This document shows positions 1 through 38,443 of a stretch of DNA of 38,443 nucleotides, one piece after another (positions within the stretch are counted from its first letter, which is position 1; the number at the start of each line of letters is the position of its first letter). Source of the DNA: an uncultured Eubacterium sp. Its GTDB lineage: Bacteria; Bacillota; Clostridia; Lachnospirales; Lachnospiraceae. The stretch covers positions 1 through 38,443 of the forward strand of contig CANOET010000010.1 in NCBI GenBank assembly GCA_947564835.1, written 5' to 3'. Both the position numbers and the translations under genes were made by a program. The notes beneath the pieces were generated by a model that did not search any database, was not told the origin of the DNA, and saw nothing but the letters and a program-made list of their open reading frames with translations.

Positions 1-215
1 CAGGCTTCTATGAAACGCAAATTCAGGTGTTGTAAAGCCTGCCATAATCAGACTCTCCGGTTCCCAGCCCGCAGAGTCGTCCGGTTAGCCACATCTCCCC
101 CGCAAACCAGGACTTCCACAGCCCGCAGAGTCGTCCGCATAGCCACATCCCCCCCGCTAACCAGGATCTCCACATCCCGCCAGGATCTTTGCAGCAGCAG
201 CATTTACGCAGTATT
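1..215. repeat. Composite intergenic repeat, copy 1
   Basis: This gene-free stretch carries one GTAAAGCCTGCCA-type unit (about 29-60) followed by two copies of the arm that reads CCGCAGAGTCGTCCG (about 80-98 and 125-140), each followed by AGCCACATC. The same modules recur in at least eight other gaps of the window. Its first 95 bases match 34510-34672 almost exactly, except that the latter has two extra tandem units. No convincing protein is encoded. Confidence 0.8.
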
Positions 216-721
216 TCCCAATAATTCTGGAATTTTCCTTGCAATTTTGTAAGATTGTGCTAAACTGTATCTATATAATCTCTATTCTAAAAAAGAAATA
301 GTATGATACATACAGTTCCATAGTATTACGTATACTTTTTCAAGTTTAGTCAATAATAGACAGAATATTCAGAAAATATTCTGTAAGCGAAACGCAGAGA
401 AAGAACCGTCCGTGAAACCGGATGCTTTTGTCATCTGCATCTGACCATGAGAAGGAATTGTTCCATTCCTTTATAGGAATCATTTAACAAGCAATAAAGC
501 CAATGCAGTTCACTTTGCGGCTGTCAGCTTTTGCTGCAGCACAAGTGGAATCCGGCCCGCCGCGGTTTTCCGGGCTTTGCGGTTGGTGCTTGTTTTGCGG
601 GCAAAAGAAGAAAGGAACGCATAGGCCGGATACAGGCAATGGAACAGACCGCATGGGATAAAAGATTAAGGAAAGGAAGTTTTTACAGTGGACTGACTGC
701 ACTGTAGCAAAGGAGGATACC
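216..721 (+). promoter_or_regulatory. Long 5' region of the hemerythrin gene with several dyads
   Basis: About 500 bases without a credible gene. A TATAAT hexamer sits at 274-279 without a good -35. Dyads seen directly: GTATG/CATAC at 301-313, a perfect 10-bp inverted repeat ACAGAATATT/AATATTCTGT at 360-384, and TACAGTG/CACTGTA at 684-706, just before the AAAGGAGG ribosome binding site and the ATG at 722. The last could hide or expose the ribosome binding site or act as an operator. I recognise no known riboswitch here. Confidence 0.4.
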
Positions 722-2068
722 ATGGGAAATCAATTAGTATGGCAGGATCGGTTTGACATAGGGGTAGATGTCATCGACAGGGAACACAGGAAGCTTTTCA
801 GTATTATGAACCGCCTGTTTACGTTTAGCGAGCAGGAAGATAAAATGCAGTGGGTATGCCAGGAAGGGCTGAAGTATTTTCAGGATCATGCGATGAAGCA
901 TTTTGCAGAAGAAGAGGTTTATATGGCTTCGATCGCATATAAAGGGTATGAGTCGCACAGGCGTATCCATGATAATTTCCGCCGGAATACGCTGCCGGCA
1001 TTGGAGCAGGAGCTGCAGCTGTCCCATTATTCCAAGGATGCGGTAAGCCATTTCCTAAGTGTCTGCGCCGGATGGCTGATCGGCCATACATTAACGGAGG
1101 ACCGTGCGATTACCGGAGAAGTAATGAGCAAATGGGACAATCTGCTGCCGGAGGAAGAAGAGCTGGCGGTCAAACAGCTGATTACCCATCTGGTCAAAGA
1201 TATGTTCCAGCTGGATATACGCCTGATCAGCGACCGTTACGGCGCGGAAAAATTCGGAAAGGGCATTTACTATCGGATGATCTACAAGAATCATAAGAAT
1301 GAAAAGTGGGAAGTTTTTATGGTGTTTGAAGAAAAACTGCTGTTGGAAACGGTTGGCAAAATGATGGGCGGCAAATCCGAAAAGATGAGCGCTGTAATTA
1401 TGAACGCGTCCAGATACACGATAAAACAGTTTGTAGAACGGATTTTGGAGTATTTGCCGGTTGCTGACGGATATGAGCTGCAGGATGAAAATCTGCTCTC
1501 ATTTGAGCAGTTCCAGAAAGTATTTACAAAGCCGCAGTGCAGCCTTTTGTTTGATACGGGCGCAGGTTATTTTGCATACTGTGCAATGCTGCCGCGCGCA
1601 TTGAAAAAAGCCGGAGTGTCTATCGTTACGGAGAACGCGGTAACGGAAGTGCGCAATTACTTAAAGAACAACGAAGAACAGCAGGCTGGAGATTCCAAGA
1701 AAAAGCTGCTGATTATCGACGATTCGGATACGATCTGCCTGGCTATGCAGGAGCTGTTCGGGAAGGATTATGATGTGGCGGTGGCAAAATCCGGTATGGC
1801 GGGAATCCGCTGCCTGATGCTGAACCGGCCGGATCTTGTCCTGCTGGATTATGAGATGCCGGTATGCGATGGCGTACAAGTACTGCAGATGATCCGTTCG
1901 GAGGAAGACTTTGCGAAGATTCCGGTATTTTTCCTTACCGGCAAGTTGGATAAATCCAGTGTTACCAGAGTGATGCCGTTAAAGCCGGAGGGTTATCTGC
2001 TAAAGAACCAAAAGCCTGCGGATATTAAGAAAAACATTGACGGTTATTTTCGTAAAAAAAAAGGATGA
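722..2068 (+). CDS. Hemerythrin domain protein with C-terminal response-regulator receiver domain
   Basis: 448 residues; AAAGGAGG lies 5 bases before the ATG. Residues 1-130 are a bacteriohemerythrin: the pattern with His22, His56, His60, Glu64, His79, His83 and a later GHTLTED segment fits the di-iron, oxygen-binding four-helix bundle. Residues 325-445 are a receiver domain: acidic pocket in LLIIDDSD, phospho-acceptor Asp376 in LLDYEMP, Thr in FFLTGK and the conserved Lys in YLLK. The middle (about 140-320) resembles a CheX/CheC-like module only loosely; the catalytic E..N pattern is not clear, so I leave that open. No signal peptide or membrane segment is seen, so it should be cytoplasmic. 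It probably couples oxygen or iron status to a phosphorelay or chemotaxis. No kinase is adjacent. Confidence 0.85.
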   Translation: MGNQLVWQDRFDIGVDVIDREHRKLFSIMNRLFTFSEQEDKMQWVCQEGLKYFQDHAMKHFAEEEVYMASIAYKGYESHRRIHDNFRRNTLPALEQELQLSHYSKDAVSHFLSVCAGWLIGHTLTEDRAITGEVMSKWDNLLPEEEELAVKQLITHLVKDMFQLDIRLISDRYGAEKFGKGIYYRMIYKNHKNEKWEVFMVFEEKLLLETVGKMMGGKSEKMSAVIMNASRYTIKQFVERILEYLPVADGYELQDENLLSFEQFQKVFTKPQCSLLFDTGAGYFAYCAMLPRALKKAGVSIVTENAVTEVRNYLKNNEEQQAGDSKKKLLIIDDSDTICLAMQELFGKDYDVAVAKSGMAGIRCLMLNRPDLVLLDYEMPVCDGVQVLQMIRSEEDFAKIPVFFLTGKLDKSSVTRVMPLKPEGYLLKNQKPADIKKNIDGYFRKKKG

Positions 2069-2075
2069 ACGTAGA

Positions 2076-2126
2076 AACCAGCTTTGGATGCTGCCGGCCA
2101 GGCAGAATGCAGAGCTGGTTTTTTAT
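2076..2126 (+). terminator. Rho-independent terminator after the hemerythrin gene
   Basis: AACCAGCT (2076-2083) pairs with AGCTGGTT (2113-2120), with an inner CTGC/GCAG helix, followed by a T run. It separates the hemerythrin gene from the sigma factor gene. Confidence 0.85.
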
Positions 2127-2132
2127 ATTTTT

Positions 2133-2163
2133 TGTAACCTTTTTGGATGCTCATTTGTATGAT
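2133..2163 (+). promoter_or_regulatory. Probable ECF-type promoter of the sigma factor gene
   Basis: TGTAACCTTTTT (2133-2144), then 13 bases, then TATGAT (2158-2163). An AAC-containing -35 followed by a T run is typical of ECF sigma targets, so autoregulation is likely. The same pattern with the same spacing occurs at 4299-4329. Confidence 0.6.
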
Positions 2164-2208
2164 TAGTGAAAGGGCCTTTCAAAGAAATCAGAAACTGAGG
2201 GATCACTC

Positions 2209-2691
2209 ATGAAGCAACCAACGGAAGAACTGATCAGGCGTTACCAGGACAATTTGTTTTCAGCCGCGTTTCAGGTTTGCAAAAATGCGGCGGATGCGGA
2301 CGATGTTGTCCAGGAGACGTTCCTGCAGTATCATGTAACAAAAAAAGAGTTTGACAGCGAGCAGCATATCCGTGCCTGGCTGATCCGGGTGGCGGTCAAT
2401 AAAGCGAAAAATGTGAACCGTTCTTTCTGGCGGCAGAATAAGGTGCCGCTGGAGGAGTATATGGAAACACTTGTTTTTGAGACGCCAAAGGAGGAAACGT
2501 TGTTTGAGACAGTGATGAAGCTTCCGCAAAAATACAGGATTGTTATCCATCTGTATTATTACGAAGAGTATTCCGTGCGTGAGATTGCCGGTATTTTAAA
2601 GCTGTCAGAAAGCAACGTGAAGGTCAGGCTGACAAGAGGACGCAAGCTGCTGCGGGAAGCATTAAAGGAGGACTGGGAAGATGACGAATAA
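2209..2691 (+). CDS. ECF-family RNA polymerase sigma factor
   Basis: 160 residues, the usual size for an ECF sigma factor. Region 2 covers about residues 10-75, including the DADDVVQETFLQ segment typical of the promoter-melting region. Region 4 covers about 100-152, with a helix-turn-helix in SVREIAGILKLSESNVKVRL. The upstream promoter has ECF character, so the protein probably drives its own transcription. The 3' end overlaps the next gene by 11 bases, and the AAAGGAGG of that gene lies inside this one, so the two are translationally coupled, as expected for a sigma factor and its regulator. The inducing signal cannot be read from the sequence. Confidence 0.92.
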   Translation: MKQPTEELIRRYQDNLFSAAFQVCKNAADADDVVQETFLQYHVTKKEFDSEQHIRAWLIRVAVNKAKNVNRSFWRQNKVPLEEYMETLVFETPKEETLFETVMKLPQKYRIVIHLYYYEEYSVREIAGILKLSESNVKVRLTRGRKLLREALKEDWEDDE

Positions 2692-3334
2692 AGAAAGATA
2701 CCGCAAAGCGTTTTCAACTCTGCATGCCTCCGGAACTATTTCTTTGGAGGAAGAGCATATGGAAAAAAGAATACGTTGTTATCGGTTGAAAAGGGCGGCT
2801 GCAGCCTGTGCGGCGGCTGCGGTCGTATGCGGCAGCATGACCGTGGCATATGCGGCTGACCTGGGCGGCATCCAGCAGAAAATGATGGCATGGTTCCATG
2901 GGGAACAGACGCAAATCAATGTCAGACGCACCGGGGAAAACAGCTACAGTTATACGTATACGGATGAAAACGGCAATGTCCGAAAAGGAGGCGGGGCCGC
3001 TGTAGGGATTGATGATAACGGCAATGAAACCGCTTTATCAGCAGAAGAAGTGCTCAAGGATGCAGGCAATGGACTGGAAGTGATGGAAGACGGGTCGGTA
3101 TGGTATTTTTACTATGATAAAAAATTCGATCTTACAGACCTGATTGACGAGGAAGGAAACTGCAAGTTCCAGTTTGCATATAAGGGCGAAACCCTTTATG
3201 TCAGCTGTTCCATCCAGCAATCGGAGGAAGGGGTGATCGATGAGGAAAACGGAATCAGCTATACGGGCGGTTACGAAACATCCATAGAAAGAGAAGCCCC
3301 GAAAGACGCAGACGATTATATATTTGTAGAGTAA
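2681..3334 (+). CDS. Membrane-anchored partner of the ECF sigma factor (putative anti-sigma factor)
   Basis: 217 residues. A short basic cytoplasmic N-terminus (1-35) is followed by one hydrophobic, alanine-rich segment (about 36-58). The outer domain (about 60-217) is polar and acidic, with many Tyr, Asp and Gly and an extracellular look. The 11-base overlap with the sigma gene and the single-pass layout are what is expected of a cognate anti-sigma factor. The cytoplasmic part is short and shows no zinc-binding HxxxCxxC motif, so it is not a classical ZAS anti-sigma factor. It resembles Clostridia sigma partners of the DUF4179 kind only in layout. Function is inferred from position. Confidence 0.65.
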   Translation: MTNKERYRKAFSTLHASGTISLEEEHMEKRIRCYRLKRAAAACAAAAVVCGSMTVAYAADLGGIQQKMMAWFHGEQTQINVRRTGENSYSYTYTDENGNVRKGGGAAVGIDDNGNETALSAEEVLKDAGNGLEVMEDGSVWYFYYDKKFDLTDLIDEEGNCKFQFAYKGETLYVSCSIQQSEEGVIDEENGISYTGGYETSIEREAPKDADDYIFVE

Positions 3335-3381
3335 CAGCACCGGAAAGGTACAGGCCGCAGGAAGATCCGGCATATAAAAGG

Positions 3382-3442
3382 CCTGTTTCGCACGGAGGAT
3401 CCGATACTTTTGCAATGCATACAGTCCGCCGCCCGAAACAGG
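3382..3442. terminator. Stem-loop between convergent genes
   Basis: CCTGTTTCG (3382-3390) and CGAAACAGG (3434-3442) form a perfect 9-bp inverted repeat, with a second CGGA/TCCG helix inside. It lies between the ends of the anti-sigma candidate and the convergent small gene and may serve both strands, but no clear T run follows. Confidence 0.45.
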
Positions 3443-3461
3443 TTGCTTTGGCATTGGGAAT

Positions 3462-3740
3462 TTAACGTTTCATACGTTTCATCATTTGGATCATGCTTTG
3501 TGCTTTTTTGCTTTCTTCCGGCGATAGATTTTTCAGCAGGACATCAAGCATCAGGTCCCGTTCCGCTTCATTAAAAGCGATCCCCTGCTTTGCAGCGTTA
3601 TTGGAGGCGGCCATTAAAGCAGCCATCATATCTTTCGGGCCGCCTCCGGCCTGCCTGGCAGACATGGCCTTTAGAAAAGCCAGCTTTTCGGGAGAGATCC
3701 CGGTTGTGTTCTGTGCATTAAATACATCATCAAAATTCAT
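3462..3740 (-). CDS. Small helical protein of unknown function
   Basis: 92 residues, starting at ATG 3740, which is preceded by GGAGG with 5-base spacing; the frame stays open upstream to 3857 but nothing supports a longer start. The protein is rich in Met, Ala and Lys and predicted to be helical. It contains SPEKLAFLKAM near the start and a central ALMAASNNAAKQG segment, and ends KRMKR. I do not recognise the family. It lies 183 bases downstream of another small minus-strand gene, possibly in the same transcript. No signal peptide or membrane segment is seen. Confidence 0.7.
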   Translation of the reverse strand: MNFDDVFNAQNTTGISPEKLAFLKAMSARQAGGGPKDMMAALMAASNNAAKQGIAFNEAERDLMLDVLLKNLSPEESKKAQSMIQMMKRMKR

Positions 3741-3923
3741 AACGTCCTCCATTCGGATTTCCTGTAACAATATTTCCAGCATCGGTCCGCTTTGGCGCCG
3801 CAGCCAATTCCGGGCCTGTATCCGGACCGGCAAGAAGTTTGCCTTTATCAACAGCATATGGCGGCAGCGGAAAAATGTGATGCATTTTGCAGAAAAGGCC
3901 GTAAAATCAAATGCCGCGGCAGA

Positions 3924-4253
3924 TCAGGAAAACATCGTCTCATACGTAGAAAACATAGAGAAAATATTCAGGATCATATCGATATGCTCCTGTTCCTGCT
4001 CCGAGCAGAATTTACGGATATCGCTCAGCATATGCAGCGTATTTTCCATTGGATTTTCAGTCGAACAGATGGACAGGGACGTATCGTCGCTGTCGATCAG
4101 GTCAATGGATTTTTTCAGCTCGATGGATTTGATCAGGGTTAAGATTTCTTTTTGCCGGGAACCGCGCATATAGGGCAGGGCGGTTTTTAAGATCTGCAGG
4201 TCTTTGTTCTGCGTCTTTTCATCAAAGGCGGTTGCTATGTAATTGTTGTCCAT
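3924..4253 (-). CDS. Small hypothetical protein upstream of the Met-rich gene
   Basis: 109 residues with an AAAGGAAA ribosome binding site upstream of ATG 4253. The protein is soluble and helical, contains YMRGSRQKEILTLIKSIEL and ends in a segment rich in Met, Ser and Phe. The family is not recognised. The pattern of two small helical proteins together recalls co-conserved pairs in Clostridia, but I cannot name one. It shares an intergenic region with the divergent 50-residue gene at 4437. Confidence 0.65.
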   Translation of the reverse strand: MDNNYIATAFDEKTQNKDLQILKTALPYMRGSRQKEILTLIKSIELKKSIDLIDSDDTSLSICSTENPMENTLHMLSDIRKFCSEQEQEHIDMILNIFSMFSTYETMFS

Positions 4254-4298
4254 AAAATTTCCTTTTTTATTTAGTGTATGAGCGGGCGGATGGAAATA

Positions 4299-4329
4299 TG
4301 ACACCTTTTTGAAAAGAGATCCATATAAT
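4299..4329 (+). promoter_or_regulatory. Second ECF-type promoter
   Basis: TGACACCTTTTT (4299-4310), 13 bases, TATAAT (4324-4329). This matches the sigma gene promoter at 2133-2163 in sequence (ACCTTTTT) and in exact spacing. An AGGAGG at 4336-4341 lies close to the expected transcript start and is followed by a 13-codon frame (4358-4399) before the gene at 4437. Confidence 0.5.
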
Positions 4330-4436
4330 GAAGAAAGGAGGTTTCTTAGTAATAGAAATGATATGGTATGGATCATTCTATATTTGGAAAAATATTTGAG
4401 AATAGAAATAAGAATAGAAAAGAAAATGGTACGATT

Positions 4437-4589
4437 ATGGGAAAACTGATTATTGATGGAAATAAGGTTTATACGGTGGATGAGGCATGTATGAAGAGGA
4501 AGAACCTGACATTGGCGCAGATCCGGGAACAGGAGCCGCAGCAGCAGGTACCGGGGCGGTCAAATGGGAGGCGTAAGGGGAGGAAATGA
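4437..4589 (+). CDS. Very small basic protein of unknown function
   Basis: 50 residues from ATG 4437. It starts with MGKLIIDGNKVYTVDEAC, then becomes very basic and ends NGRRKGRK. Similar short proteins with an IDGN-VY-IDE-C opening are, as I recall, common in Lachnospiraceae, but none has a function I know. In-frame ATGs reach back to 4368, yet no start has a well-placed ribosome binding site: the AGGAGG at 4336 is far from both. The gene lies downstream of the ECF-type promoter and is the likeliest target of the sigma factor here. The first copy-2 repeat begins 8 bases after its stop. Confidence 0.5.
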   Translation: MGKLIIDGNKVYTVDEACMKRKNLTLAQIREQEPQQQVPGRSNGRRKGRK

Positions 4590-4597
4590 GACACTTC

Positions 4598-4873
4598 TGA
4601 CATTGTGTTGCATTTGGGGGGGGGACTTTCCCGAAAGATTCTGGTTAGCCAGGAGATGTGGCTAACCGGACGACACTGCGGGCGGTGGGCAGGGGATGTG
4701 GCTAACCGAACGACACTGCGGGCGGTGGCCAGGGGACGCGCCCGCAGTGTCTAGTTATTGGCAGGCTTTACAACACCTGATTTGGTTATTGGCAGGCTTA
4801 CAACACCTGATTTGGTTATTGGCAGGCTTTACAACACCTGATCTGGTTATTGGCAGGTTTACAATAACTGAAT
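4598..4873. repeat. Composite intergenic repeat, copy 2, with four tandem units
   Basis: It opens with TGACATTGTGTTGCATTT (4598-4615), then TTTCCCGAAAGATTCTGG, then two GTGGCTAACCG arms with CACTGCGGGCGGTG. From 4752 to 4873 follow four tandem units of about 31 bases, each containing TTATTGGCAGGC and ACAACACCTGA. The end is abrupt: no inverted terminal copy of the opening motif is seen. No gene lies in 4590-4957. Confidence 0.8.
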
Positions 4874-4957
4874 TTCGGGTTCGGTACTGATAAATCTGTG
4901 ATGATATACTGGTTTATTGGCTTTGTATCAATGCGTCTATGCGTCTGGTTTTGTCTT

Positions 4958-6721
4958 TTATATACGGTTTTTAATTTTAGCCGTGATTGTGCTGATAAAA
5001 TCATCTAATGTCATTGTTTCGGTTTTTGAGGTATCTCTGCTGCGGATCGAAACAGTGCCGCCTTCGGCTTCTTTTTGACCGAGGATAAGCATATATGGTA
5101 TGCGGTCAATGAATTGTGCTTCTCTGATCATATAGCCGATTTTCTCGTTACGGCTGTCTATTTCACAACGGATTTTAGCTTTGCGGAGTGCAGTATATAC
5201 CTTGTTTCCATAATCAGCGCTTTTTTCTGACACAAGCAATATCTTAACCTGAATGGGAGCTAACCATATGGGGAATTTTCCTGCAAAATGTTCGGTGATA
5301 ATTCCAATAAAGCGTTCCATCGACCCAAAGCAAACACGATGTATCATGATCGGACGCTGTTTTTCGCCTTTTTCATCCATATATTCCAGGCAAAAGTTTT
5401 GGGGCATTTGGAAATCAAGCTGTATGGTTCCGCATTGCCAAGTGCGTCCAAGCGAATCTTCCAAATGAAAATCTATTTTCGGACCGTAAAATGCTCCGTC
5501 GCCTTCGTTTATGGTATATGGAAGTTCAAGTTTTTCAAGAGCCTGCTTTAAGCCATTTGTAGCAGCTTCCCAATCTTCATCGCTGCCCATACTGTCATCT
5601 GGGCGAGTAGAAAGTTCCATAAAATATGTAAAACCGAATTTGCTGTACACCTCGTTTATAAGATGAACGATATTCATGATTTCGGTTGTGATCTGTTCTC
5701 TGCGTAGAAAGATATGGGCGTCATCTTGTGTAAAACAACGAACACGGAATAAGCCGTGCAAAGCTCCTTTTAATTCGTGCCGATGGACAAGTCCAAGCTC
5801 TCCGATTCGCAGCGGCAAATCACGGTAGCTATGTGGCTGGCTACCATATACCAGTACACTGCCGGGGCAATTCATTGGCTTGATACAGTAGGTATCTTCA
5901 TCAATAACTGTGGAATACATATGGTTCTTGTAATGCTCCCAATGCCCGCTTGTTTCCCAAAGAGCCCGATGCATAATCATAGGCGTAGATACTTCAGCAT
6001 AATTTTCACGGGTATGAATATCCCGCCAATAATCAATTAAAGCATTTTTTAATGCCGTACCTTTCGGCAGGAAAAACGGAAAGCCTGATGCTTCGTCGCG
6101 GAACATAAATAAACCCATTTCCTTGCCTATCCTTCTGTGGTCGCGCTTTTTAGCTTCCTCAAAAAGTTTTAGGTAATCTTCAAGCTCCTTTTGCGAAGAA
6201 AAGGCGATGCCCTTAATGCGTGTAAGCATTTTATTGTTCTTATCGTTTTTCCAATACGCGCCCGATTGCCCTGTGATCTTAAAGGCCTTTAACGCTTTTG
6301 TATTACACAGATGCGGACCGGTACACATATCTATATACTCGCCCTGTCTGTAAAAACTGATTACCGCATTTTCGGGCAGATCATCCATATGTGCAGCTTT
6401 ATATTTTTCACCCCGGCTTTCCATTATAGCAATAGCTTCTTCACGGGAAAGAACAAAGGGCTTTATTGCAATATTTTCTTCGGCTATTTTCTGCATCTCA
6501 GCTTCGATAGCTTGTAAATCACCGTCGGATAATTTGGTTTCTCCTAAATCAACATCGTAATAAAAGCCGTTCTCTGTGGCAGGTCCATAAGCAAAAATAG
6601 CGTGTGGAAATAGCCGTTTCACTGCCTGCGCCAGAATATGGGCTGCTGTATGGCGTAAAATATGGTGTTCTTCCGCTTTTGGGCATTCGTTTACCAAACC
6701 GTTATTGTAAATTACTTTCAT
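4958..6721 (-). CDS. thrS: Threonyl-tRNA synthetase lacking the N-terminal TGS domain
   Basis: 587 residues from ATG 6721, with GGAAGGA 6 bases upstream; an earlier in-frame ATG (6751) has no ribosome binding site. It charges tRNA-Thr. Only about 15 residues precede the editing domain, so the usual 60-residue TGS domain is missing (family length is near 640). Editing residues are present: His24 and His28 in RHTAAH, and Cys/His in CTGPH. The catalytic core has the zinc ligands in NCPGS, in DDAHIF and in the later Trp/His-rich region, and class II motif 3 in HRVCFGSMERF. The anticodon-binding domain ends the protein. It is divergent from a TetR gene, has no T-box in its leader and is visibly AT-richer than the neighbours: a likely acquired, repressor-controlled second ThrRS rather than the housekeeping copy. 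Confidence 0.93.
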   Translation of the reverse strand: MKVIYNNGLVNECPKAEEHHILRHTAAHILAQAVKRLFPHAIFAYGPATENGFYYDVDLGETKLSDGDLQAIEAEMQKIAEENIAIKPFVLSREEAIAIMESRGEKYKAAHMDDLPENAVISFYRQGEYIDMCTGPHLCNTKALKAFKITGQSGAYWKNDKNNKMLTRIKGIAFSSQKELEDYLKLFEEAKKRDHRRIGKEMGLFMFRDEASGFPFFLPKGTALKNALIDYWRDIHTRENYAEVSTPMIMHRALWETSGHWEHYKNHMYSTVIDEDTYCIKPMNCPGSVLVYGSQPHSYRDLPLRIGELGLVHRHELKGALHGLFRVRCFTQDDAHIFLRREQITTEIMNIVHLINEVYSKFGFTYFMELSTRPDDSMGSDEDWEAATNGLKQALEKLELPYTINEGDGAFYGPKIDFHLEDSLGRTWQCGTIQLDFQMPQNFCLEYMDEKGEKQRPIMIHRVCFGSMERFIGIITEHFAGKFPIWLAPIQVKILLVSEKSADYGNKVYTALRKAKIRCEIDSRNEKIGYMIREAQFIDRIPYMLILGQKEAEGGTVSIRSRDTSKTETMTLDDFISTITAKIKNRI

Positions 6722-6761
6722 TTTGTGTTCCTTCCTGTCATTGATTAGCATTTCCCGTTTG

Positions 6762-6792
6762 CAAACAGTTACAGTTTACCCAGTAACTGCAA
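6762..6792. promoter_or_regulatory. Inverted repeats in the thrS leader, candidate operator
   Basis: Left GCAAACAGTTAC and right GTAACTGCAAAC: CAGTTAC and GTAACTG are perfect inverted arms around 10 bases, and the left side also contains the palindrome GTTTGCAAAC. It sits just upstream of the thrS start, where a repressor could block transcription. Confidence 0.45.
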
Positions 6793-6815
6793 ACATTCCT
6801 GCTGATAAAAAGCAA

Positions 6816-6854
6816 GATGCTACACTTGTGCCATCCTGTTTTTTATCCTATAAT
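6816..6854 (+). promoter_or_regulatory. tetR promoter overlapping a 20-bp near-palindrome
   Basis: TTGTGC (6826-6831), 17 bases, TATAAT (6849-6854) forms a good promoter for the TetR gene. The -35 lies inside a 20-bp near-palindrome (6816-6835; GATGCTACA against TGTGCCATC), a typical size for a TetR-family operator, so autorepression is likely. Confidence 0.6.
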
Positions 6855-6926
6855 AAATGGGCAGTTTTTTCAATACATCTGCGGCAGGTGCTACAACAAT
6901 CGTTTTTTGTGACAGGAGATAATACT

Positions 6927-7478: not shown

Positions 7479-7541
7479 ATTAGGCTCTTAGAAACGATTT
7501 TTTGCGCAAAATGGTAGAATTTTAATTCCAGGAGATAGAAT

Positions 7542-8051
7542 TGACATTGTGTTGCATTTTGAGGGCTTTCCCGAAAGATTCTGTTTAGCCAGGAGATGTG
7601 GCTAACCAGACGACTCTGTGGGTGGTGGGTAGGGGATGTGGCTAACCGCCCGCAGTGCCTGGTTATTGGCAAGCTTCCAAACACCTGAGTTTACGTTTCA
7701 TGTAAAGCGAGCGAAAACCAGCCGGACGAGGAGGAATGGTTTTACATGAACTAAAATTATAATGTTGTCTATCATGTACCTATAGGTGTGGACACGGAAA
7801 GTCTGGCTTTATATGGACTGAGTTTTAGATACTGGCAGATTTACATAAACTGAATTTTAGATACTGGCGGGCTTACATGAACTGGAATTTTAGATACTGG
7901 CAGGCTTTTACATGAACTGGAATTTTAGATACTGGCAGGCTTTTACATAAACTGGAATTTAGGTGTTGTAAAGCCCGCAGTGTCGTCCGGATAGCCACAT
8001 CCCCTGGCCAATCAACATCTATCGGGAAACCAAAAACATAACACTATGTCA
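7542..8051. repeat. Composite intergenic repeat, copy 3: 510-bp element with long terminal inverted repeats
   Basis: The left end reads TGACATTGTGTTGCATTT, then TTTCCCGAAAGAT, AGCCAGGAGATGTGGCTAAC and CAGACGACTC. The right end, read on the other strand from 8051, gives TGACATAGTGTTATG, TTTCCCGATAGAT, GGCCAGGGGATGTGGCTA and CCGGACGACACTG. The two ends are thus roughly 80-90-base imperfect inverted repeats. Inside, 7800-7960 holds five tandem units of 30-35 bases built on TTTAGATACTGGCAGG and TTACATGAACT. No protein is encoded. Confidence 0.78.
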
Positions 8052-8092
8052 AAAGTGTTCCTCTTCTGGTTGATCCAGATTAGGCAGGAAAA

Positions 8093-8130
8093 GAAAAACA
8101 GCTGGCCGGTATACCAGCCCGCTGTTTTTC
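8093..8130. terminator. Bidirectional terminator
   Basis: GAAAAACAGC (8093-8102) and GCTGTTTTTC (8121-8130) pair perfectly over 10 bases with an inner TGG/CCA helix. It follows the minus-strand Cys/Gly-rich gene and can terminate on either strand. Confidence 0.85.
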
Positions 8131-8198
8131 TCAAATGCTATTCACATACGGGGCTCTGCAGAAGGCCCGAAGGCCCTCCGCAGACACCAACCGGCGAT

Positions 8199-8456
8199 TT
8201 AGAAGAAGCCGTTGCCGCCGCATCCGCATCCGCACAGCAGCAGTAAAATCAGCCAGATACAGCTGTTGTCGCTGCCGCCGCATCCGCATCCGTTGCCGCA
8301 GCCATTGCCGCCGAAGAAAGAACCGCCGCCGTTGTTGCCGCAGCAGCAGAATAACAGCAGGATAATCCAAATAAAGGAATTATTTCCTCCTGCACATCCG
8401 CACCCACAGCTGGTGTTTTCTCCACATCCACAGTTTGTAGCAGCTAAATCACTCAT
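8199..8456 (-). CDS. Cys/Gly-rich small protein with two hydrophobic segments
   Basis: 85 residues from ATG 8456, preceded by GGAGG with 8-base spacing; an upstream in-frame ATG lacks a site. The sequence is built of GCGCG and GNGCG clusters around two similar hydrophobic stretches, SFIWIILLLF (about 27-36) and SCIWLILLLL (about 65-74), so it appears to be an internal duplication. About one residue in six is Cys. Firmicutes proteins of this composition are sometimes labelled chorion-class high-cysteine proteins from composition alone; the function is unknown. It may be membrane-associated, disulfide-linked or metal-binding. It has its own terminator and is divergent from the isocitrate dehydrogenase gene. 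Confidence 0.75.
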   Translation of the reverse strand: MSDLAATNCGCGENTSCGCGCAGGNNSFIWIILLLFCCCGNNGGGSFFGGNGCGNGCGCGGSDNSCIWLILLLLCGCGCGGNGFF

Positions 8457-8553
8457 AATGATTGCCTCCATTTTTTATTTGTTTTATGGTTTATACTATG
8501 AGCGCAGCTTGTATAGGTTTCCAAAAAAAATAAGATAATAAACCGTACATGCA

Positions 8554-8610: not shown

Positions 8611-8625
8611 AGGAGGATGGATAAA

Positions 8626-9837: not shown

Positions 9838-9940
9838 GCGTTTATGCAAAACCCATAGGGAGTCAGAACCCGGCTTGCCGCACCGCTTCCTGCGTGTCAG
9901 AATGGGTGGATGCGGGATGGGGGTGGGTGGCCTTGCGGAC

Positions 9941-9986
9941 GTGTCCGGGTCAGCGGAAAGGAGCTGCGGCCCGGACACTGTTCTTT
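9941..9986 (+). terminator. Stem-loop after icd
   Basis: GTGTCCGGG (9941-9949) and CCCGGACAC (9970-9978) are perfect 9-bp arms with inner CAGC/GCTG pairs, followed by TGTTCTTT. It is probably the icd terminator, though its right half is also part of a repeat module shared with 20877-20950. Confidence 0.6.
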
Positions 9987-10111
9987 GGCAGGCGTTACAC
10001 GGCCTGAATGCAGTTATCTGACTGGCATCACATAATGCGGAATCAGATACTAAAAAGATCTACGCGAACCGTAATTCAGACAGTGTAAAGCCCGCAGAGT
10101 CGTCCGGCTTA
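9970..10111. repeat. Intergenic repeat copy 4 (GGCGTTAC module plus CCGCAGAGTCGTCCGG)
   Basis: CCCGGACACTGTTCTTTGG followed by CAGGCGTTACACGGCCTGAA matches 20902-20945 closely. A segment GTGTAAAGCCCGCAGAG with TCGTCCGG (about 10084-10109) joins the tandem-unit and arm modules directly. No gene lies in 9838-10267; the rest is the icd hairpin and the ABC-F promoter. Confidence 0.65.
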
Positions 10112-20835: not shown

Positions 20836-20985
20836 ATGGGAATAAGAGGGCAGAAGAGAAAGTGGCCTCTCGAATTGGAATAGGAGGGCGGAAGAGAAAG
20901 TGGCCTCCCGGACACTGTTTGTTGGGTGGCGTTACGTGATTCAGGCAGTATGTTTTGTTTGGCGTTACGTGACGCAGCCGCATAC
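20836..20985. repeat. Intergenic repeat copy 5 (direct repeats, GGCGTTAC module)
   Basis: GGAATAAGAGGGCAGAAGAG and GGAATAGGAGGGCGGAAGAG are near-identical starts of two direct copies about 40 bases apart, both running into AAAGTGGCCTC. After CCCGGACACTGTTTGTTGG comes TGGCGTTACGTGATTCAGGC, and a second TTTGGCGTTACGTGACGCAG. The same module occurs at 9970-10015 and, inverted, near 28635-28650. No clear gene lies in 20814-21310, apart from the remnant at 21120. Confidence 0.7.
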
Positions 20986-22439: not shown

Positions 22440-23983
<1,544 letters not shown>

Positions 23984-28456: not shown

Positions 28457-28488
28457 GGGGGCTCCTTTTTGTGTATGGTATATTTTCA

Positions 28489-28660
28489 TGGGATGTGGCT
28501 GATATGGCTGCCCGGATGACTCTGCGGGCTGTGGCCAGGGGACGCGCCGGGAGAGTCGTCCGGTTAGCCACATCCCCTGGCTAACCAGGATCTTTCGGGA
28601 AGTCCCAAATACAATACCGGATCTTGGCCATGTAACGCCAGCCAGTAAACCAACCCAGCC
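28489..28660. repeat. Intergenic repeat copy 6 (contracted palindrome)
   Basis: GGATGTGGCT at 28491, GATGACTCTGCGGGCTGTGG, CCAGGGGACGCGCCGGGAG, then directly AGTCGTCCGGTTAGCCACAT and CCCCTGGCTAACC: the two arms are joined without the long interior seen at 33051-33274. It ends in ATCTTTCGGGAAGTCCCAAA, the inverted form of the opening segment of copy 2, and an inverted GGCGTTAC module. It fills the leuC/lysR gap with the operator region after it. Confidence 0.72.
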
Positions 28661-28683
28661 CACCCAACGGAAACAGCTGTTTC

Positions 28684-28754: not shown

Positions 28755-28784
28755 CATCAATTTTCATAAAAGGAGGAATGAACC

Positions 28785-30041: not shown

Positions 30042-30053
30042 GAGGATAGTGCA

Positions 30054-31651: not shown

Positions 31652-31699
31652 CGGCCTTTATCCGTCGCGATCCATAAAATTAGCAAGGAGACCTGAACC

Positions 31700-32974: not shown

Positions 32975-32994
32975 TTTGTTGGTACGGAAGGGGG

Positions 32995-33282
32995 AGGTGG
33001 CTAGCCGGACGACTTTGCGGGCTGTGGGCAGGGGAGGTGGCTAAGCGGACGACTCTGCGGGCTGTGGGCAGGGAATACGCTGGGAGACACACCTTGGGCG
33101 GACTGGGGCAACGCTGCGGTGAACGAATCGCTAACTGCGACTAAGACAGTCGGGGTGTGGCCCTCCTGTCTTAGTCTCCGTAAGCGCTGGATTTCACCTC
33201 CGCTAAGAGCGCCCCTTCAACGTCCTTCCAAGGTGTGTCTCCCAGCGCATTCCCGGCCCACAGCCCGCAGAGTCTGGTTGTG
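32995..33282. repeat. Intergenic repeat copy 7 with a 224-bp nested palindrome (33051-33274)
   Basis: Two direct GTGGCTAxCCGGACGACT arms (32998 and 33039) are followed by a perfect-looking cruciform. Left arm 33051-33097 (GACTCTGCGGGCTGTGGGC to GACACACCTTGG) and right arm 33228-33274 are inverted copies over 47 bases with two mismatches. The interior is nested: GGAC/GTCC, GGGG/CCCC, CGCT/AGCG, GGTGAA/TTCACC and GACTAAGACAG (33139-33149) with CTGTCTTAGTC (33166-33176). The start of another copy is at 38387-38443. It looks like a structured RNA or MITE-type element. Confidence 0.82.
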
Positions 33283-33518
33283 GCAGGCTTTACAATATCT
33301 AAATTACAGTTCATGTAAGCCTGTTAACATCTAAATTACAGTTCATGTAAGCCTGTCAACATCTAAATTACAGTTCATGTAAGCCTGTCAACATCTGAAT
33401 TACAGTTCATGTAAAGCATGTCAATATCTAAATTACAGTTCATGTAAGCCTGTCAACATCTGAATTACAGTTCATAAGCCTGCCAATATCTAAACTTCAG
33501 TTCATGTAAAGCATGCCG
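33283..33518. repeat. Tandem array of seven 32-bp units
   Basis: Seven units close to GCCTGTCAACATCTAAATTA plus CAGTTCATGTAA, some with GCATGTC or GAATT variants, and one missing two bases. Each holds a TTACA-N5-TGTAA dyad. Units abut with no spacers, so it is not a CRISPR. The last unit runs into the stop codon of the lipoprotein gene. The units are the inverted relatives of those at 7800-7960. Confidence 0.9.
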
Positions 33519-34272
33519 TAGGGATTCTGTCATACATTGCAGTATCTTCTTCCTGTTTAGACAGTTGCTCTTCGTCTAAATCAAGTCTTAACATACTTCT
33601 TATATTGTTCATGTATTCTGGGTCTTTCATCATATCATCTGTAACCATATAACTGGAAATAGGATTCTGCCATGGAATCACAAAAATATCTTTATCATCA
33701 ATATCAAAGGTAGACAAAATCAATGCCATTTCCTCTGATGTAGCGCCTTTTAATGCCATCATCTCTTTCAAAGTTTTATTGCGATTGGTTCCTTGCATCA
33801 GTCCAAATCGATAGTCATTCTCTGCCATTTGCCAAACGTAAACCTCTAGTCCCTTAAATGTTCCAAGATCAAAGTATTCTGGATATTTTTCACGCAATTT
33901 CTCTATATCAGTAGAGTTCCACTCATATTCTGATTCAAGGCCATCTGGAATATGAGTGACATTTACTTCTTTATACAACATGGCACCTCCATCTACTGTA
34001 AGGTAATTAGCAAGCCATTCATCCGTTGGATAATCTTTATATTCACATACCCTGTCATCAGTTTCCCCATTTAGATATCCAATTTGCGTTCCACAATCAT
34101 TTTTAGATACAACACAAAAAGGTGCGTATGTCCTATCTTCCCAAATGATAGACTTATACCCATCGCCCTCGCCTGTACTCATATCAATCAAATTTGTGTT
34201 TTTCCCACATGCACATAACATAATAGAAAAAAGGACACATAAGCAAATTATACTGTATAGTTTCTTTTTCAT
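33502..34272 (-). CDS. AT-rich lipoprotein of unknown function
   Basis: 256 residues from ATG 34272 (GGAGAAGGAAC upstream). A lipoprotein signal with CVLFSIMLCAC and the lipobox ending in Cys gives surface anchoring at about Cys21. The mature part is acidic, with YAPFCVV, WLANYLTVDGGAM and DDKDIFVIPWQ, and several Asp/Glu runs; family unknown. The last residues (TACFT) are encoded by a repeat unit (GCATGCTTTACATGA), so the array has replaced or extended the original 3' end. Codon and base use are much more AT-rich than the flanking genes. It lies between repeat copies 7 and 8a and may be a horizontally acquired cargo. Confidence 0.8.
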   Translation of the reverse strand: MKKKLYSIICLCVLFSIMLCACGKNTNLIDMSTGEGDGYKSIIWEDRTYAPFCVVSKNDCGTQIGYLNGETDDRVCEYKDYPTDEWLANYLTVDGGAMLYKEVNVTHIPDGLESEYEWNSTDIEKLREKYPEYFDLGTFKGLEVYVWQMAENDYRFGLMQGTNRNKTLKEMMALKGATSEEMALILSTFDIDDKDIFVIPWQNPISSYMVTDDMMKDPEYMNNIRSMLRLDLDEEQLSKQEEDTAMYDRIPTACFT

Positions 34273-34329
34273 GTTCCTTCTCCTTGCTGTAAATGATATT
34301 TCTATTTTGCATTGTCTGATACATTTTAT

Positions 34330-34358
34330 ATCATACATTATTTATGTGCATATTTCAA
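34330..34358 (-). promoter_or_regulatory. Promoter of the lipoprotein gene
   Basis: On the minus strand TTGAAA (34358-34353), 17 bases, TATGAT (34335-34330). A good match, 57 bases before the start codon. Confidence 0.65.
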
Positions 34359-34451
34359 GGCACATAATATACTAAGATAGTGTAACTTTACTTGCGGATT
34401 CAATGAACAAGATAATACCCTAACCTGGATGAACCAGAAAAGAAACATTTT

Positions 34452-34672
34452 TGACATTGTGTTGCGTTTTTTAGTGGCTAGGCGGACGCCGGATGAGGGG
34501 GAAAGGGCCTGGCTTCCATGAAACGCAAATTCAGGTGTTGTAAAGCCTGCCAATAACCAGACTCTCAGGTATTGTAAAGCTTGCCAATAACTGGACTCTC
34601 AGGTGTTGTAAAGCCTGCCATAATCAGACTCTGCGGTCCCCAGCCCGCAGAGTCGTCCGGTTAGCCACCCCA
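34452..34672. repeat. Composite intergenic repeat copy 8a with three 34-bp units
   Basis: Opens TGACATTGTGTTGCGTTT (34452-34469). From 34510 it matches 1-95 of the window. Three units (34532-34632) of CAGGTGTTGTAAAGCCTGCC plus AATAACCAGACTCT follow, then CCCAGCCCGCAGAGTCGTCC and GGTTAGCCACCC. It lies between the lipoprotein gene and the EF-G-like gene. Confidence 0.82.
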
Positions 34673-34731
34673 CCCCCTCCCATTCATTGTATATTTTGCT
34701 TGATACCATCCATAAAAATTCAAAAAAATTG

Positions 34732-34760
34732 TTGTAATTGCCCATGATCTTTGTTAAAAT
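34732..34760 (+). promoter_or_regulatory. Promoter of the EF-G-like gene
   Basis: TTGTAA (34732-34737), 17 bases, TAAAAT (34755-34760). A long leader of about 120 bases follows, with CTGCAGCATCTGCAG near 34814-34831, and no known riboswitch. Confidence 0.55.
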
Positions 34761-34887
34761 TAATATAGTGTTTGCGACAGACCAGAACCATTGCTGTGTA
34801 CACAGTATTTTGCAGCATCTGCAGCATCTGCAGAATCTGTAAATCCGCAACGGTTTGACAAAAAATATGCAGGAGGTAAAAAGCAAT

Positions 34888-36978
34888 ATGGAGGTATTTA
34901 CAACAGACAGGATACGCAACGTAGTACTTTTAGGGCATGGCGGGGCAGGTAAGACAAGCCTGGTAGAAGCAATGGCGTATCTGTCAGGCCAGACAAACCG
35001 CATGGGCAAAGTCAGCGACGGCAATACCGTCAGCGATTTTGATAAAGAAGAGATAAAACGCTCTTTTTCTATCCAGACGACAATAGTACCGATTCTTTGG
35101 GAGAATACAAAGATTAATATCCTGGATACGCCGGGCTATTTTGATTTTGTCGGAGAAGCAGAAGAAGCGGTCAGCGTGGCTGATGCTGCGATTATTGTAG
35201 TCAGCGGCAAGGCAGGGATTGAAGTAGGGACGAGAAAAGCGTGGGAAATGTGCGAGCGTTATAAGCTGCCGCGTATGTTTTTTGTAACGGATATGGATAT
35301 CGATAACGCAAGCTTCCGCCAGGTAGTGGAAGATTTGCAGGAGCTGTATGGCAAGAAAATTGCACCGTTCCATCTGCCGATCCGTGAAAATGAGAAGTTT
35401 GTCGGCTATGTAAATATAGTGGCGCAGACTGCAAACCGCTGGAATGATAAGGGGGAAGTCGTGCCGATGGATCTGCCAGATTATTCGGTGCCGTATCTGG
35501 AAAAATGCAGGGAAGCGCTGGTAGAGGCAGTGGCTGAGACAAGCGAAGAGTTTATGGACCGCTATTTTAACGGCGAGGAATTTTCAGAAAACGAAATCCG
35601 CCAGGCGCTGCGTGTGAATGTAACGGACGGCAGTATTGTCCCGGTTTCTATGGGTTCCTGCATTTTGGCACAGGGCGTCTATACGCTGCTTGACGATATT
35701 ACCAAATATTTTCCGAGCCCGGATAAAAGGGCATGTGCGGGCATTAATGCTACGACGAATGAAGTATATCAGGCGGATTATGATTTTTCCAAACCGAAGT
35801 CTGCTTACATATTCAAGACGATCCAGGATCCATTTATTGGCAAATACTCGCTGATCAAGGTTAATTCAGGCGTTTTGAAGACCGATGACGTATTGTTAAA
35901 TTATCACAGGGATACTGAAGAGAAAATCGGGAAACTCTATGTGATGAGAGGGGCAAAGGCGGAAGAAGTCAAAGAACTGCATGCCGGGGATATCGGTGCG
36001 CTTGCAAAGCTGAACAAGGCGCGTACAACGGATTCTCTGTCTACAAAGGCAAATCCGATTTTATATATCCGCACCACATTGTCGACGCCGTATACATGCA
36101 AGCGTTATAAAGTAAAGAACAAGGCGGATGTGGACAAAGCATCCCAGGCCCTGACCAAGCTGACACATGAGGATCTGACGTTAAAGGTAGTAAATGACAG
36201 CGCCAACGGGCAGACACTCCTTTACGGCATTGGAGAGCAGCAGCTGGATGTCGTAGTCAGCAAACTGGCGAACCGGTATAAGGTAGAGATTGAGCTTGGA
36301 AAGGCAAAGGTTGCCTTCCGTGAAACAATCAGGAAAAAAGCAGATGTTGAATATAAATATAAAAAACAGTCCGGCGGGCACGGACAGTACGGCCATGTAA
36401 AGATGACCTTTGAACCGTCCGGTGACCTGGAGACGCCTTACGAATTTTCACAGACCGTTGTCGGCGGGGCAGTTCCGAAAAATTACTTCCCGGCCGTTGA
36501 AAAGGGCATTCAGGAATCGGTAAAGAGCGGCCCGCTTGCGGCTTATCCGGTTGTCGGCATTAAGGCAAACTTGTACGATGGATCTTACCATCCGGTAGAT
36601 TCCTCCGAGCTTGCTTTTAAGGTTGCTGCCGCGCAGGCGTTTAAAAAAGGATTTTTACAGGCTTCCCCGGTATTGTTAGAGCCGATTGCATCTATGGTTG
36701 TAACTGCATCCGACAAGTATACCGGAGACATTATGGGAGACCTGAACAAACGGCGGGCGCGTGTACTTGGCATGAATCCGATAGAAGGTGGTAAGCAGGA
36801 GATCACTGCGGACATTCCTTATACGGAGCTGGACGGCTATACGACAGTACTGCGTTCCATTACCGGCGGGGAAGGCACCTACCGCTATGAGCTTGCCCGC
36901 TATGAACAGGCGCCGGAAGACGTACAAAAACGCGAAATTGAAGCCAGAGCGAATAAACTGGTGAATATTGAAGAGTAA
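34888..36978 (+). CDS. EF-G-like translational GTPase (paralogue with altered G motifs)
   Basis: 696 residues from ATG 34888, with AGGAGG (34871-34876) upstream; a TTG at 34855 precedes that site and is rejected. The five-domain EF-G layout is complete. G1 is GHGGAGKT (16-23). G2 has IQTTI. G3 reads DTPGYFDF, with Tyr where EF-G has the catalytic His. G4 reads TDMD where EF-G has NKMD, so guanine recognition is altered. Domain IV is present with QSGGHGQYGHVKM, close to the EF-G tip. It is a divergent second EF-G-like factor common, as I recall, in Lachnospiraceae; the housekeeping fusA should be elsewhere. No terminator precedes the next gene. Confidence 0.88.
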   Translation: MEVFTTDRIRNVVLLGHGGAGKTSLVEAMAYLSGQTNRMGKVSDGNTVSDFDKEEIKRSFSIQTTIVPILWENTKINILDTPGYFDFVGEAEEAVSVADAAIIVVSGKAGIEVGTRKAWEMCERYKLPRMFFVTDMDIDNASFRQVVEDLQELYGKKIAPFHLPIRENEKFVGYVNIVAQTANRWNDKGEVVPMDLPDYSVPYLEKCREALVEAVAETSEEFMDRYFNGEEFSENEIRQALRVNVTDGSIVPVSMGSCILAQGVYTLLDDITKYFPSPDKRACAGINATTNEVYQADYDFSKPKSAYIFKTIQDPFIGKYSLIKVNSGVLKTDDVLLNYHRDTEEKIGKLYVMRGAKAEEVKELHAGDIGALAKLNKARTTDSLSTKANPILYIRTTLSTPYTCKRYKVKNKADVDKASQALTKLTHEDLTLKVVNDSANGQTLLYGIGEQQLDVVVSKLANRYKVEIELGKAKVAFRETIRKKADVEYKYKKQSGGHGQYGHVKMTFEPSGDLETPYEFSQTVVGGAVPKNYFPAVEKGIQESVKSGPLAAYPVVGIKANLYDGSYHPVDSSELAFKVAAAQAFKKGFLQASPVLLEPIASMVVTASDKYTGDIMGDLNKRRARVLGMNPIEGGKQEITADIPYTELDGYTTVLRSITGGEGTYRYELARYEQAPEDVQKREIEARANKLVNIEE

Positions 36979-37020
36979 TTTTATTTAAATGATCAAAACG
37001 GAAGGAGGATCCGGTGAAAA

Positions 37021-38325
37021 ATGGCGCGTATGATGCTCTGCATTCTTCTTGCAGTTGTTCTGTTACTGGAACAGCCGCAGCTGACAAAGGGGCGCGGCGT
37101 CATGGAATGGCCGCATTCTCCTTCTGTTTACGATGGAAATACCCTGGATACTGCAAATAATTTAAACAGCAGTATACCAGTCTATCATATTATCTATAAT
37201 CTGAATCTGGGTGAAAACCATTACCTGAATCCATCTGTCTATTACGAACAGCTGCTGCCGGTAAAATTGATGCCTCCAAAGAGAGAGGGCTATAATTTTG
37301 CAGGCTGGTATACAGACAGCAGCTATAAGCATCCTCTGACCGGGATTGAAGACTGCGAAAACGGCAACCTGATCCTATATGCCAAATGGACCAAAAAAAT
37401 ATCCGGTTCCATGAATATCCAGCTGTATTCTTACGGCGCAGGCAGCCTGACAAGGTCGCCGGAAAAAAAGCTGTCCAACATGAGCTACCGGATCTTAGAA
37501 GATCTGGATATCCCAGGCATGCCAGGCACCAGGTTCGAAGATTATATCACCAATAAATTATTCAGCGTAGACCAGTGCCCGCAGGGGCTGTGCGTAACCG
37601 AGGAGCATATCCTCGTAACATCCTACAGCACGGGGAACCATGAGAATTACGGTTCTTTATACGTATTCGACCGCCGCACAGGCGATTATCTGGCCACGCT
37701 TTCCATGAAAAAAGGCAGCCATTTAGGCGGGATCTGCTACGACGGAGAAAACCTTTGGATCTGCCATTCCAACTACCGCACGATTGAACGTCTGGATTAT
37801 GCATTGGTAAAAGAAATTGCAAAACATCAGCCGGGCAGGACCATAGAGCTGACACAAAAACACGAAGAATACCGCGTCTTAAATTCACCTTCCTGTATCA
37901 CATTTTTCAGCGGAAAGCTATGGATTGCCACACATACCAGGTTTTTTAAATCCATTATGAAATCTTACCGATACAGCGGCGGCGTTTTGGAGGAATGTGA
38001 AGAATTTGCGATACCGGACAAGGTGCAGGGAGTCGCATTTGACGAAGACGGACATGTCTATCTGAGTACTTCCTTCGGGCGCAGCAAATCTTCTTATATT
38101 AAAGTCTATCGTTCCGCATATGACCTGAGCAAGCAGCCGGAAAAACCTGCGGAATGCGTGGAGATGCCGCCTTGTTCCGAGGAATTGTCGATTGCGGGGG
38201 ATGAATTGCTGGTTTTATTTGAATCGGGGGCGCAGAAATATATGGAAGGGACCGATGGGAAAGGGAAGGCGTTGGCGCCGTTGGATCATATGGTGGCGAT
38301 ACAGTTGGATTCTTTTGCGAAATAA
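37021..38325 (+). CDS. Secreted protein with InlB-type repeat and propeller-like domain
   Basis: 434 residues from ATG 37021, with AAGGAGG 12 bases upstream; ATG 37030 and GTG 37014 (other frame) are alternatives. A signal peptide or TM anchor (1-24, MLCILLAVVLLLEQP) is followed by a Listeria/Bacteroides InlB B-repeat (about 55-125, PKREGYNFAGWYTDSSYKHP and LILYAKWTKK), a known cell-surface module. Residues about 185-430 have short repeats of the type GGICYDGENLWICH, FFSGKLWIATHT, GVAFDEDGHVYLS: a beta-propeller-like fold. No sortase motif is visible. It follows the EF-G-like gene with a 42-base gap and no terminator, so it may share its transcript. Confidence 0.78.
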   Translation: MARMMLCILLAVVLLLEQPQLTKGRGVMEWPHSPSVYDGNTLDTANNLNSSIPVYHIIYNLNLGENHYLNPSVYYEQLLPVKLMPPKREGYNFAGWYTDSSYKHPLTGIEDCENGNLILYAKWTKKISGSMNIQLYSYGAGSLTRSPEKKLSNMSYRILEDLDIPGMPGTRFEDYITNKLFSVDQCPQGLCVTEEHILVTSYSTGNHENYGSLYVFDRRTGDYLATLSMKKGSHLGGICYDGENLWICHSNYRTIERLDYALVKEIAKHQPGRTIELTQKHEEYRVLNSPSCITFFSGKLWIATHTRFFKSIMKSYRYSGGVLEECEEFAIPDKVQGVAFDEDGHVYLSTSFGRSKSSYIKVYRSAYDLSKQPEKPAECVEMPPCSEELSIAGDELLVLFESGAQKYMEGTDGKGKALAPLDHMVAIQLDSFAK

Positions 38326-38352
38326 AATATAAAATTAAATAACTGGTTACCT

Positions 38353-38443
38353 GGATGAGTTGGCCGGGGGATGTGGCTAACCGGACGACTCTGCGGGCTG
38401 CGGCCAGGGGATGCGCCGGGAGACACACCTTGGGCGGACTGGG
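38353..38443. repeat. Composite intergenic repeat copy 9, cut by the window end
   Basis: CTGGATGAGTTGGCCGG and GATGTGGCTAACCGGACGAC lead into GACTCTGCGGGCTGCGG (38387 onward) and GGGAGACACACCTTGGGCGG, the same left arm as 33051-33097. The window ends before the interior. Confidence 0.8.

Follow-up and report, generated by a model that had tools for sequence, protein, structure and literature searches.

Intergenic palindromic repeats of an uncultured Eubacterium as derivatives of a candidate family of giant DNA hairpins in the Lachnospiraceae

Miniature inverted-repeat transposable elements (MITEs) are short and are characterised by terminal inverted repeats and target duplications, and the organelles of Volvox are known to be rich in palindromes. 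Composite palindromic repeats also fill the long intergenic gaps of the DNA considered here, the window, i.e. the entire 38,443-nt contig 10 (CANOET010000010.1) of the assembly GCA_947564835.1 from an uncultured Eubacterium sp. of the Lachnospiraceae, which comprises 4.12 Mb in 385 contigs. Our best reading is that these repeats belong to a new family of giant-hairpin elements that are mobile but not autonomous, which is represented in this genome mostly by core-less, tandem and nested derivatives.

Among the described systems, the repetitive extragenic palindromes (REPs) of Proteobacteria with their composite forms, the bacterial interspersed mosaic elements (BIMEs) and the REP doublets (REPINs), and their REP-associated tyrosine transposases (RAYTs) come close. 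They resemble our element in occurring as hundreds of intergenic palindromes with a short conserved 5' motif, in the hairpin and in composite or inverted layouts. However, the REPs tabulated in PMC2817692 measure approximately 20-40 nt, whereas our element is with 180-300 nt several times longer, and its 5' motif is GGACG and not of the GTAG type. It differs further in its large conserved core, in stems that are mostly unrelated to each other in a carrier of another genus (G137), in the 9-bp direct repeats found in congeners and in the lack of any detected Y1 transposase in this genome. Compared with MITEs, the congener copies are alike in their shortness, in CAATGTCATTAACTT terminal inverted repeats and in target duplications, but the element is a single hairpin with conserved internal loops, its stems vary between copies in another genus, and no parent transposon was found, no search aimed at one having been made (a review of MITEs is PMC10969869). 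The motif MRSC-65-2 is described in the consulted part of PMC11109978 as a long-stem mobile/repeat motif with a UYCCGG repeat in diverse phyla; like our element, it has a single long stem that covaries, reaches dozens of copies in a genome and is possibly a DNA structure, whereas our element was seen in one family only and has other conserved bulges. Finally, the repetitive hairpin elements (RHEs) of sponge mitochondria (PMC2800124, in part) are likewise palindromes that proliferate between genes, but in contrast to such mitochondrial or organellar hairpins the present element resides in a bacterial chromosome and possesses a long conserved core. An earlier description of it was not met in the titles and abstract openings listed from the open-licence literature in PMC, which does not establish its absence in print.

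An earlier note on the window had reported the same repeat modules in at least nine gaps. All nine indeed bear modules, the strongest being located at 4597-4875, 7480-8082, 28501-28650, 32990-33515, 34421-34680 and at both contig ends. The gap at 9921-10107 carries mainly and that at 20856-20975 exclusively a second stem class. The assumption of a dispersed family that rearranges holds. In a genome-wide search, the left-arm 26-mer GTGGCTAACCGGACGACTCTGCGGGC gave 535 matches (279+256) with up to 3 mismatches across the whole assembly, compared to 0 matches of the reversed-pattern control. In a 766-kb sample, consisting of the window and 40 further stretches and scanned with up to 4 mismatches, 58 arm copies were found in both orientations, as had been proposed (31 minus, 27 plus). 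Intergenic placement applies as well: only 3 of these 58 copies fall inside greedy open reading frames (ORFs) of at least 120 aa, which cover 84% of the sample, and two of the three are situated at window positions 28504/28546, where the ORF start has probably been set too far upstream. A side-by-side reading of sampled clusters by eye revealed palindromes nested inside palindromes. The window contig starts and ends within the repeat, and when 22 other contig starts of the sample were inspected for seven module patterns, 12 had one in their first 300 nt; hence, the assembly probably breaks at the repeats and copies are likely undercounted. Altogether, the repeat observation is correct, and larger than first stated.

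One architecture stands behind the modules, namely a 136-nt core with invariant bulges in a covarying stem, which has the basal motif GGACG / CTGGT. The core limits were defined by BLAST with one window copy, of which the query positions 28-163 recur exactly in two congeners, G003 and G009, and likewise in several of this genome's own copies; core matches were obtained in 3 of 13 genomes of the genus, and both congeners harbour the same core within a different stem. The only full core with both arms in the window lies at 33051-33274 on the plus strand. It consists of the left arm (33051..33094, from an inverted-repeat search), the conserved core with its bulges (33095..33230, delimited by BLAST, alignment and covariance model) and the right arm (33231..33274), which is followed by the motif CTGGTT at 33274-33279. 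Upstream, two tandem left-arm units are found on the same strand (32990..33050), the second of which bears the GGACG basal motif at 33047-33051, and downstream a direct-repeat search detected a right-hand tandem array of units of about 32 nt, GTAAGCCTGTCAACATCTAAATTACAGTTCAT (33275..33515, plus strand). The DNA fold z-scores of the copies folded are -11.7, for this window copy, and -13.0. In the structure predicted from 28 aligned copies, 32 of 63 pairs have both partners exchanged in one or more of the sequences, 96.5% of the cells are paired, and the covariation score is 0.446 compared to 0.145 in shuffled alignments (0 of 500 shuffles reach it) and at most 0.113 with slid partners. Rfam, searched up to E 5 with the window and eight copy-bearing loci, listed two window and six locus matches, all of them under the gathering scores. 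Consistent with the earlier note, which could not name the family, it is not a described one in the libraries searched.

The core is much rarer than the arms in this genome, with 26 matches versus 535 arm copies. Probably, it has been lost from most copies, and assembly breaks also hide cores. Among 29 distinct right sides of cores, 21 are of the CTGGT type, 4 belong to the second class, 3 terminate in the left motif's complement and a single one is unrelated (in part classified by eye), while a script called 12 of 30 left sides as GGACG type and 5 as second class and left 13 uncalled. At the locus L131, an insert of approximately 17 nt lies inverted in the left half of the core, and in the right half in several G009 copies, as if the hairpin tip had flipped.

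Regarding the possibility that the modules are restricted to this genome, this is true for the exact 26-mer arm, which was absent from all 60 relatives searched, 12 of them congeners, but not for the architecture, which occurs across the family. A covariance model (R1; 180 positions plus flanks, 5' motif GGACG) matched 29 of 397 sampled genomes of the family, representing 27 of 334 genera. Since the filters were strict and no more than six candidates were scored in each genome, this survey gives a lower bound. When 150 candidates were scored in each of ten carriers, 8, 8, 8, 10, 10, 18, 20, 26, 36 and 47 copies were obtained. A second model (R2) was run on 391 genomes of the class, at least 16 of which belong to this family, and its 3 matching genomes are all members of the family. 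One core copy had no match in phage and plasmid records at E up to 0.01, and viral contigs contained neither the exact arm nor the exact core pattern. Across 84,980 species, a 19-mer of the arm was found in at least three records with one match each, among the matches listed and with the source genome perhaps left out; the record labelled Roseburia appears by eye to be coding sequence.

Evidence for mobility came from G003 and G009, of which 14 copies were taken for the analysis of ends (L091, L098, L099 and L133 were left out). Both ends were found in 11 of the 14, bounded by the terminal inverted repeats CAATGTCATTnACTT ... AAGTnAATGACATTG with up to 3 mismatches. Direct 9-bp repeats with at least 7 of 9 positions identical flank 8 of these 11 copies, compared to 10 of 110 mismatched pairings. 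Such direct repeats around a unit of 280-301 bp indicate that the element moves as DNA.

A different picture of the stems emerged from G137, a nearly closed genome of another genus, in which 23 copies were read from 20 stretches in addition to copies fetched earlier. By eye, the stem is preceded by GGACG and followed by CTGGT or CTGTT in most of them. The stems of 26 copies are 96% Watson-Crick paired, although left arms of different copies are on average only 30% identical (0.30), and no 10-mer is common to any two of 22 arms (this set excludes four copies fetched earlier and the short one at 2992937). Searched in their own genome, the 22 arms were found at their own two places, as two local partial copies and as weak matches. 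The idea of guide-like stems was rejected for this genome, as these other matches cover 15-24 nt at E of at least 0.49; no search of the arms in phages or plasmids was made. The genome G428 allows a comparison of loci, its flanks being 90-100% identical to those of G137 over the matched stretches. At ten loci compared by hand, R1 matched in eight, a core-deleted remnant is present at L243 and L238 is ambiguous. The G137 copy at 963401 is absent from G428, as judged from the junction by eye, and the short copy at 2992937 may be absent there, too. No R1 match was obtained at 14 orthologous flanks in sister species (G431-G433).

The mismatches in the stem bear on the level at which pairing is maintained. 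In 82 rows kept of 101 aligned matches (the rest were repeat matches to the same element, e.g. on the reverse strand), the outer 22 stem pairs contain 23 GT and 34 AC mismatches among 1770 cells. For the whole 26-pair stem the numbers are 41 GT and 43 AC, where pairs 23-26 in this genus account for 12 of the GT cells, and 82 hand-picked elements gave 28 GT and 37 AC. Selection in RNA should favour GT, and GT does not exceed AC; hence, the stem pairing seems to be kept at the DNA level. This points to structured DNA rather than RNA in the stem, while the case of the core is less clear.

We assume with a probability of approximately 55% that the repeats derive by nesting, truncation and tandem duplication from non-autonomous elements forming giant DNA hairpins, which are mobilised in trans and whose arms are kept complementary at the DNA level. 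According to this model, the element would be a giant imperfect DNA hairpin with the 136-nt core at its tip, a long stem that varies from lineage to lineage and in many cases from copy to copy, and at its base an internal loop formed by 5' GGACG and 3' CTGGT. A transposase acting in trans could recognise the folded or cruciform element, and the arms would stay complementary perhaps by template switching within the hairpin. Past stop codons, such long hairpins may be tolerated, where they could replace or join an intrinsic terminator. In the present genome, mainly core-less derivatives would have multiplied, some of them inside a second unit with TTA-bounded ends.

Several observations weigh against this interpretation. 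No mobilising transposase was identified, in a search aimed at Y1_Tnp. The 9-bp repeats were sought in two congeners alone and are lacking in 3 of the 11 scored copies (L088 and L089 with inverted flanks, L092 with none), the other 3 of the 14 copies were not scorable, and the cases are not all independent, since L087 seems to be the same locus as L090 and the targets of L097 and L129 are similar. In this genome, the outermost ends differ. The alignment shows no excess of further pair types (74 versus 73.4 in shuffles; 240 of 500). Direct evidence for copying from arm to arm is weak: the three right sides that end in the complement of the left motif all sit at contig ends, and they could result from an arm copied onto the other arm, from misassembly or from a flipped tip, which would look identical. 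Similar stems occur by eye in L195, L249 and L253 of G137, the difference at 963401 could be a deletion in G428 with GGGGA at the junction, and L275, first thought empty, contains a related GGACGC/CTGGTT hairpin, missed by R1, whose stem is a different one and whose core is larger.

The remaining points of this kind concern the pairing of the core and the location of the copies, the latter being in line with the hairpin model too. Both are in favour of the most serious rival, in which the element is a structured RNA at mRNA 3' ends (a terminator, stabiliser or protein-binding RNA) that has been multiplied and whose pairing is under selection in the transcript. Of 26 copies in G137, 14 have their 5' side no more than 120 nt from a stop codon that reads towards the element, and one has its 3' side so placed; among 25 loci taken one per genome (one of them from G137) the 5' side was within 100 nt in 14 cases and the 3' side in 3 (p 0.013, hand count); for these counts ORFs were called mechanically. 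Such a sense orientation behind stop codons is also expected of an RNA function. In the core helices, GT exceeds AC (86 versus 47), although 55 of the 86 GT cells are confined to two pairs beside the apical loop. The strong covariation fits an RNA as well, and by eye terminator-like hairpins, which suit the hairpin model too, are present at at least 7 of the 14 orthologous flanks, several of which lie within coding sequence. Nevertheless, the outer stem lacks a wobble preference in both counts, Rfam gave no match, the stems are mostly unrelated among copies of one genome, and direct repeats of 9 bp are present in the congeners; we consider the RNA explanation unlikely.

A more radical version of the hairpin model is unlikely to the same degree: it would be the folded DNA and not fixed ends that defines the family, with the conserved tip being propagated and both stem arms rewritten in each copy, either through a dedicated enzyme or through hairpin-templated copying. 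Each copy of a genome would thereby possess inverted sequences unique to itself.

Alternatively, unrelated ordinary MITE families may have inserted into each other by chance, and the core family would be one of several, without special behaviour. Other repeat families occupy the same gaps, an ordinary MITE would also show terminal inverted repeats and 9-bp repeats, and the congener copies have common stems. However, a single architecture with left GGACG, core and right CTGGT recurs across genera, and simple copy-and-paste does not predict the copy-specific stems of G137; we regard this view as quite unlikely. Still more doubtful appears the idea that the core alone is mobile and inserts at the tips of existing palindromes such as terminators or other repeats, whose arms would then be the stems. 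The copy-specific and well paired stems of G137, the coexistence of several stem classes with nested palindromes in this genome, and L252, which by eye lies between terminator-like arms, would agree with it. But GGACG and CTGGT/CTGTT are found by eye outside the stem in most copies, which places the stem inside the element, and none of the 22 G137 arms has a counterpart elsewhere in the genome apart from the two local partial copies and weak matches.

The earlier note had also likened the repeats to REP/BIME elements, which is adequate for layout and location, but the RAYT-type transposase expected with them (Y1_Tnp, PF01797) gave 0 matches in this assembly, which is 92% complete, with 5 of 14 control genomes positive. 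Among ten other carriers, the Y1_Tnp gene is present in seven and was not found in G399, G093 and G260; since it is missing here and in these three, a RAYT is probably not the general partner of the element. A REP/REPIN system moved by a RAYT-type Y1 transposase is therefore a highly improbable explanation, despite the seven carriers with the gene, the intergenic 3'-end location, the short 5' motif ahead of the hairpin and the outward 5' motifs in 10 of 11 close pairs tested (hand count among the matches listed; two more were seen), because the unit is 180-300 nt long, has 9-bp direct repeats and the pair orientation may merely be a result of convergent genes.

The other repeats of the window illustrate the variety of derivatives. 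The copy at the contig start (1..172, minus strand) contains a right tandem unit (31-48) and two tandem left-arm units (67-92, 121-146). On the plus strand, a core-less copy (4597..4875) is composed of a TTGACATTGTGTTGC end, a CCCGAAAGATTC arm and two 40-nt left-arm units without a right end, and includes, on the same strand, a series of GGCAGGCTTTACA units measuring about 31 nt, of which three are clear and the fourth is weaker. The unit at 7480..8082 (plus strand) has two unlike ends, TTAGGCTCTTAGAAACGATTTTTTGCGC on the left and CTGGTTGATCCAGATTA followed by GGC on the right, each at TTAGG, with TTAGGC at both borders; inside are nested arms and a 33-35-nt tandem array, and it may represent a second mobile unit that carries arms. 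A 69-nt element at L039:18474-18542, in which left and right ends of this type are joined almost directly, looks like a minimal derivative. Members of the second stem class are located at 9921..10107 (plus strand; with GGACGTGTCCGGGTCAGCGG, GGCGTTAC and one GGCAGGCGTTACA unit, from a by-eye comparison with L139/L142/L145), where the core is gone through a deletion with CCCGG common to its ends and a cut-off inverted left arm occupies 10088-10107, and as a remnant with two GGCGTTACGTGA units, recognised by eye, at 20856..20975 (plus strand). Further plus-strand copies comprise a left arm fused without a core to an inverted left arm and followed by an inverted CCCGAAAGATC arm (28501..28650), a mixed copy with a CCTGGATGAACCAG end, a TTGACATTGTGTTGCG end, a GGGGGAAAGGGCCTGG arm, three right tandem units and an inverted left arm (34421..34680), and a left arm with the first core bases that is truncated by the contig end (38361..38443).

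Some additional repeats were noticed. Another dispersed repeat with CTTGCTGCTTGGACAAGGCC and GTTACAGTTCACACC palindromes and approximately 11 self-matches in the sample occurs at L031:6962-7122, and also at L057:1-371 and L036:19204-19300. Further families (TACTGTGTTATGGAAATAGCAGTGAATACAG; GAATGCCTAGGGATTCTTAACATTCTGGAATAGGAGC) share gaps with the described modules at L036:17685-18090, L038:8320-8433 and L052:9-263, and an AT-rich array of irregular GCTAAGAGAAAATAGCTGT units lies at L037:3160-4137 of this genome. A repeat of about 70 nt with AGAGCGTGTTTGAAAAAGGCTTTC at the flank of L245 has dozens of matches in G137 and G428. The small ORF at window positions 8199-8471 contains repeated short CCG-rich motifs and gives the impression of perhaps encoding a glycine/cysteine-rich small protein.

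Covariation is usually taken as a sign of RNA. Here it is strong, yet the stem shows no wobble bias and is variable within a genome, hence it appears to belong to a structured-DNA element. Such elements could mislead pipelines for RNA discovery, cause assemblies to break where genes end and influence the 3' ends of transcripts family-wide. If it is true that the stems are rewritten with each move, the element would alter its sequence and yet keep its fold in a manner unusual among mobile elements.

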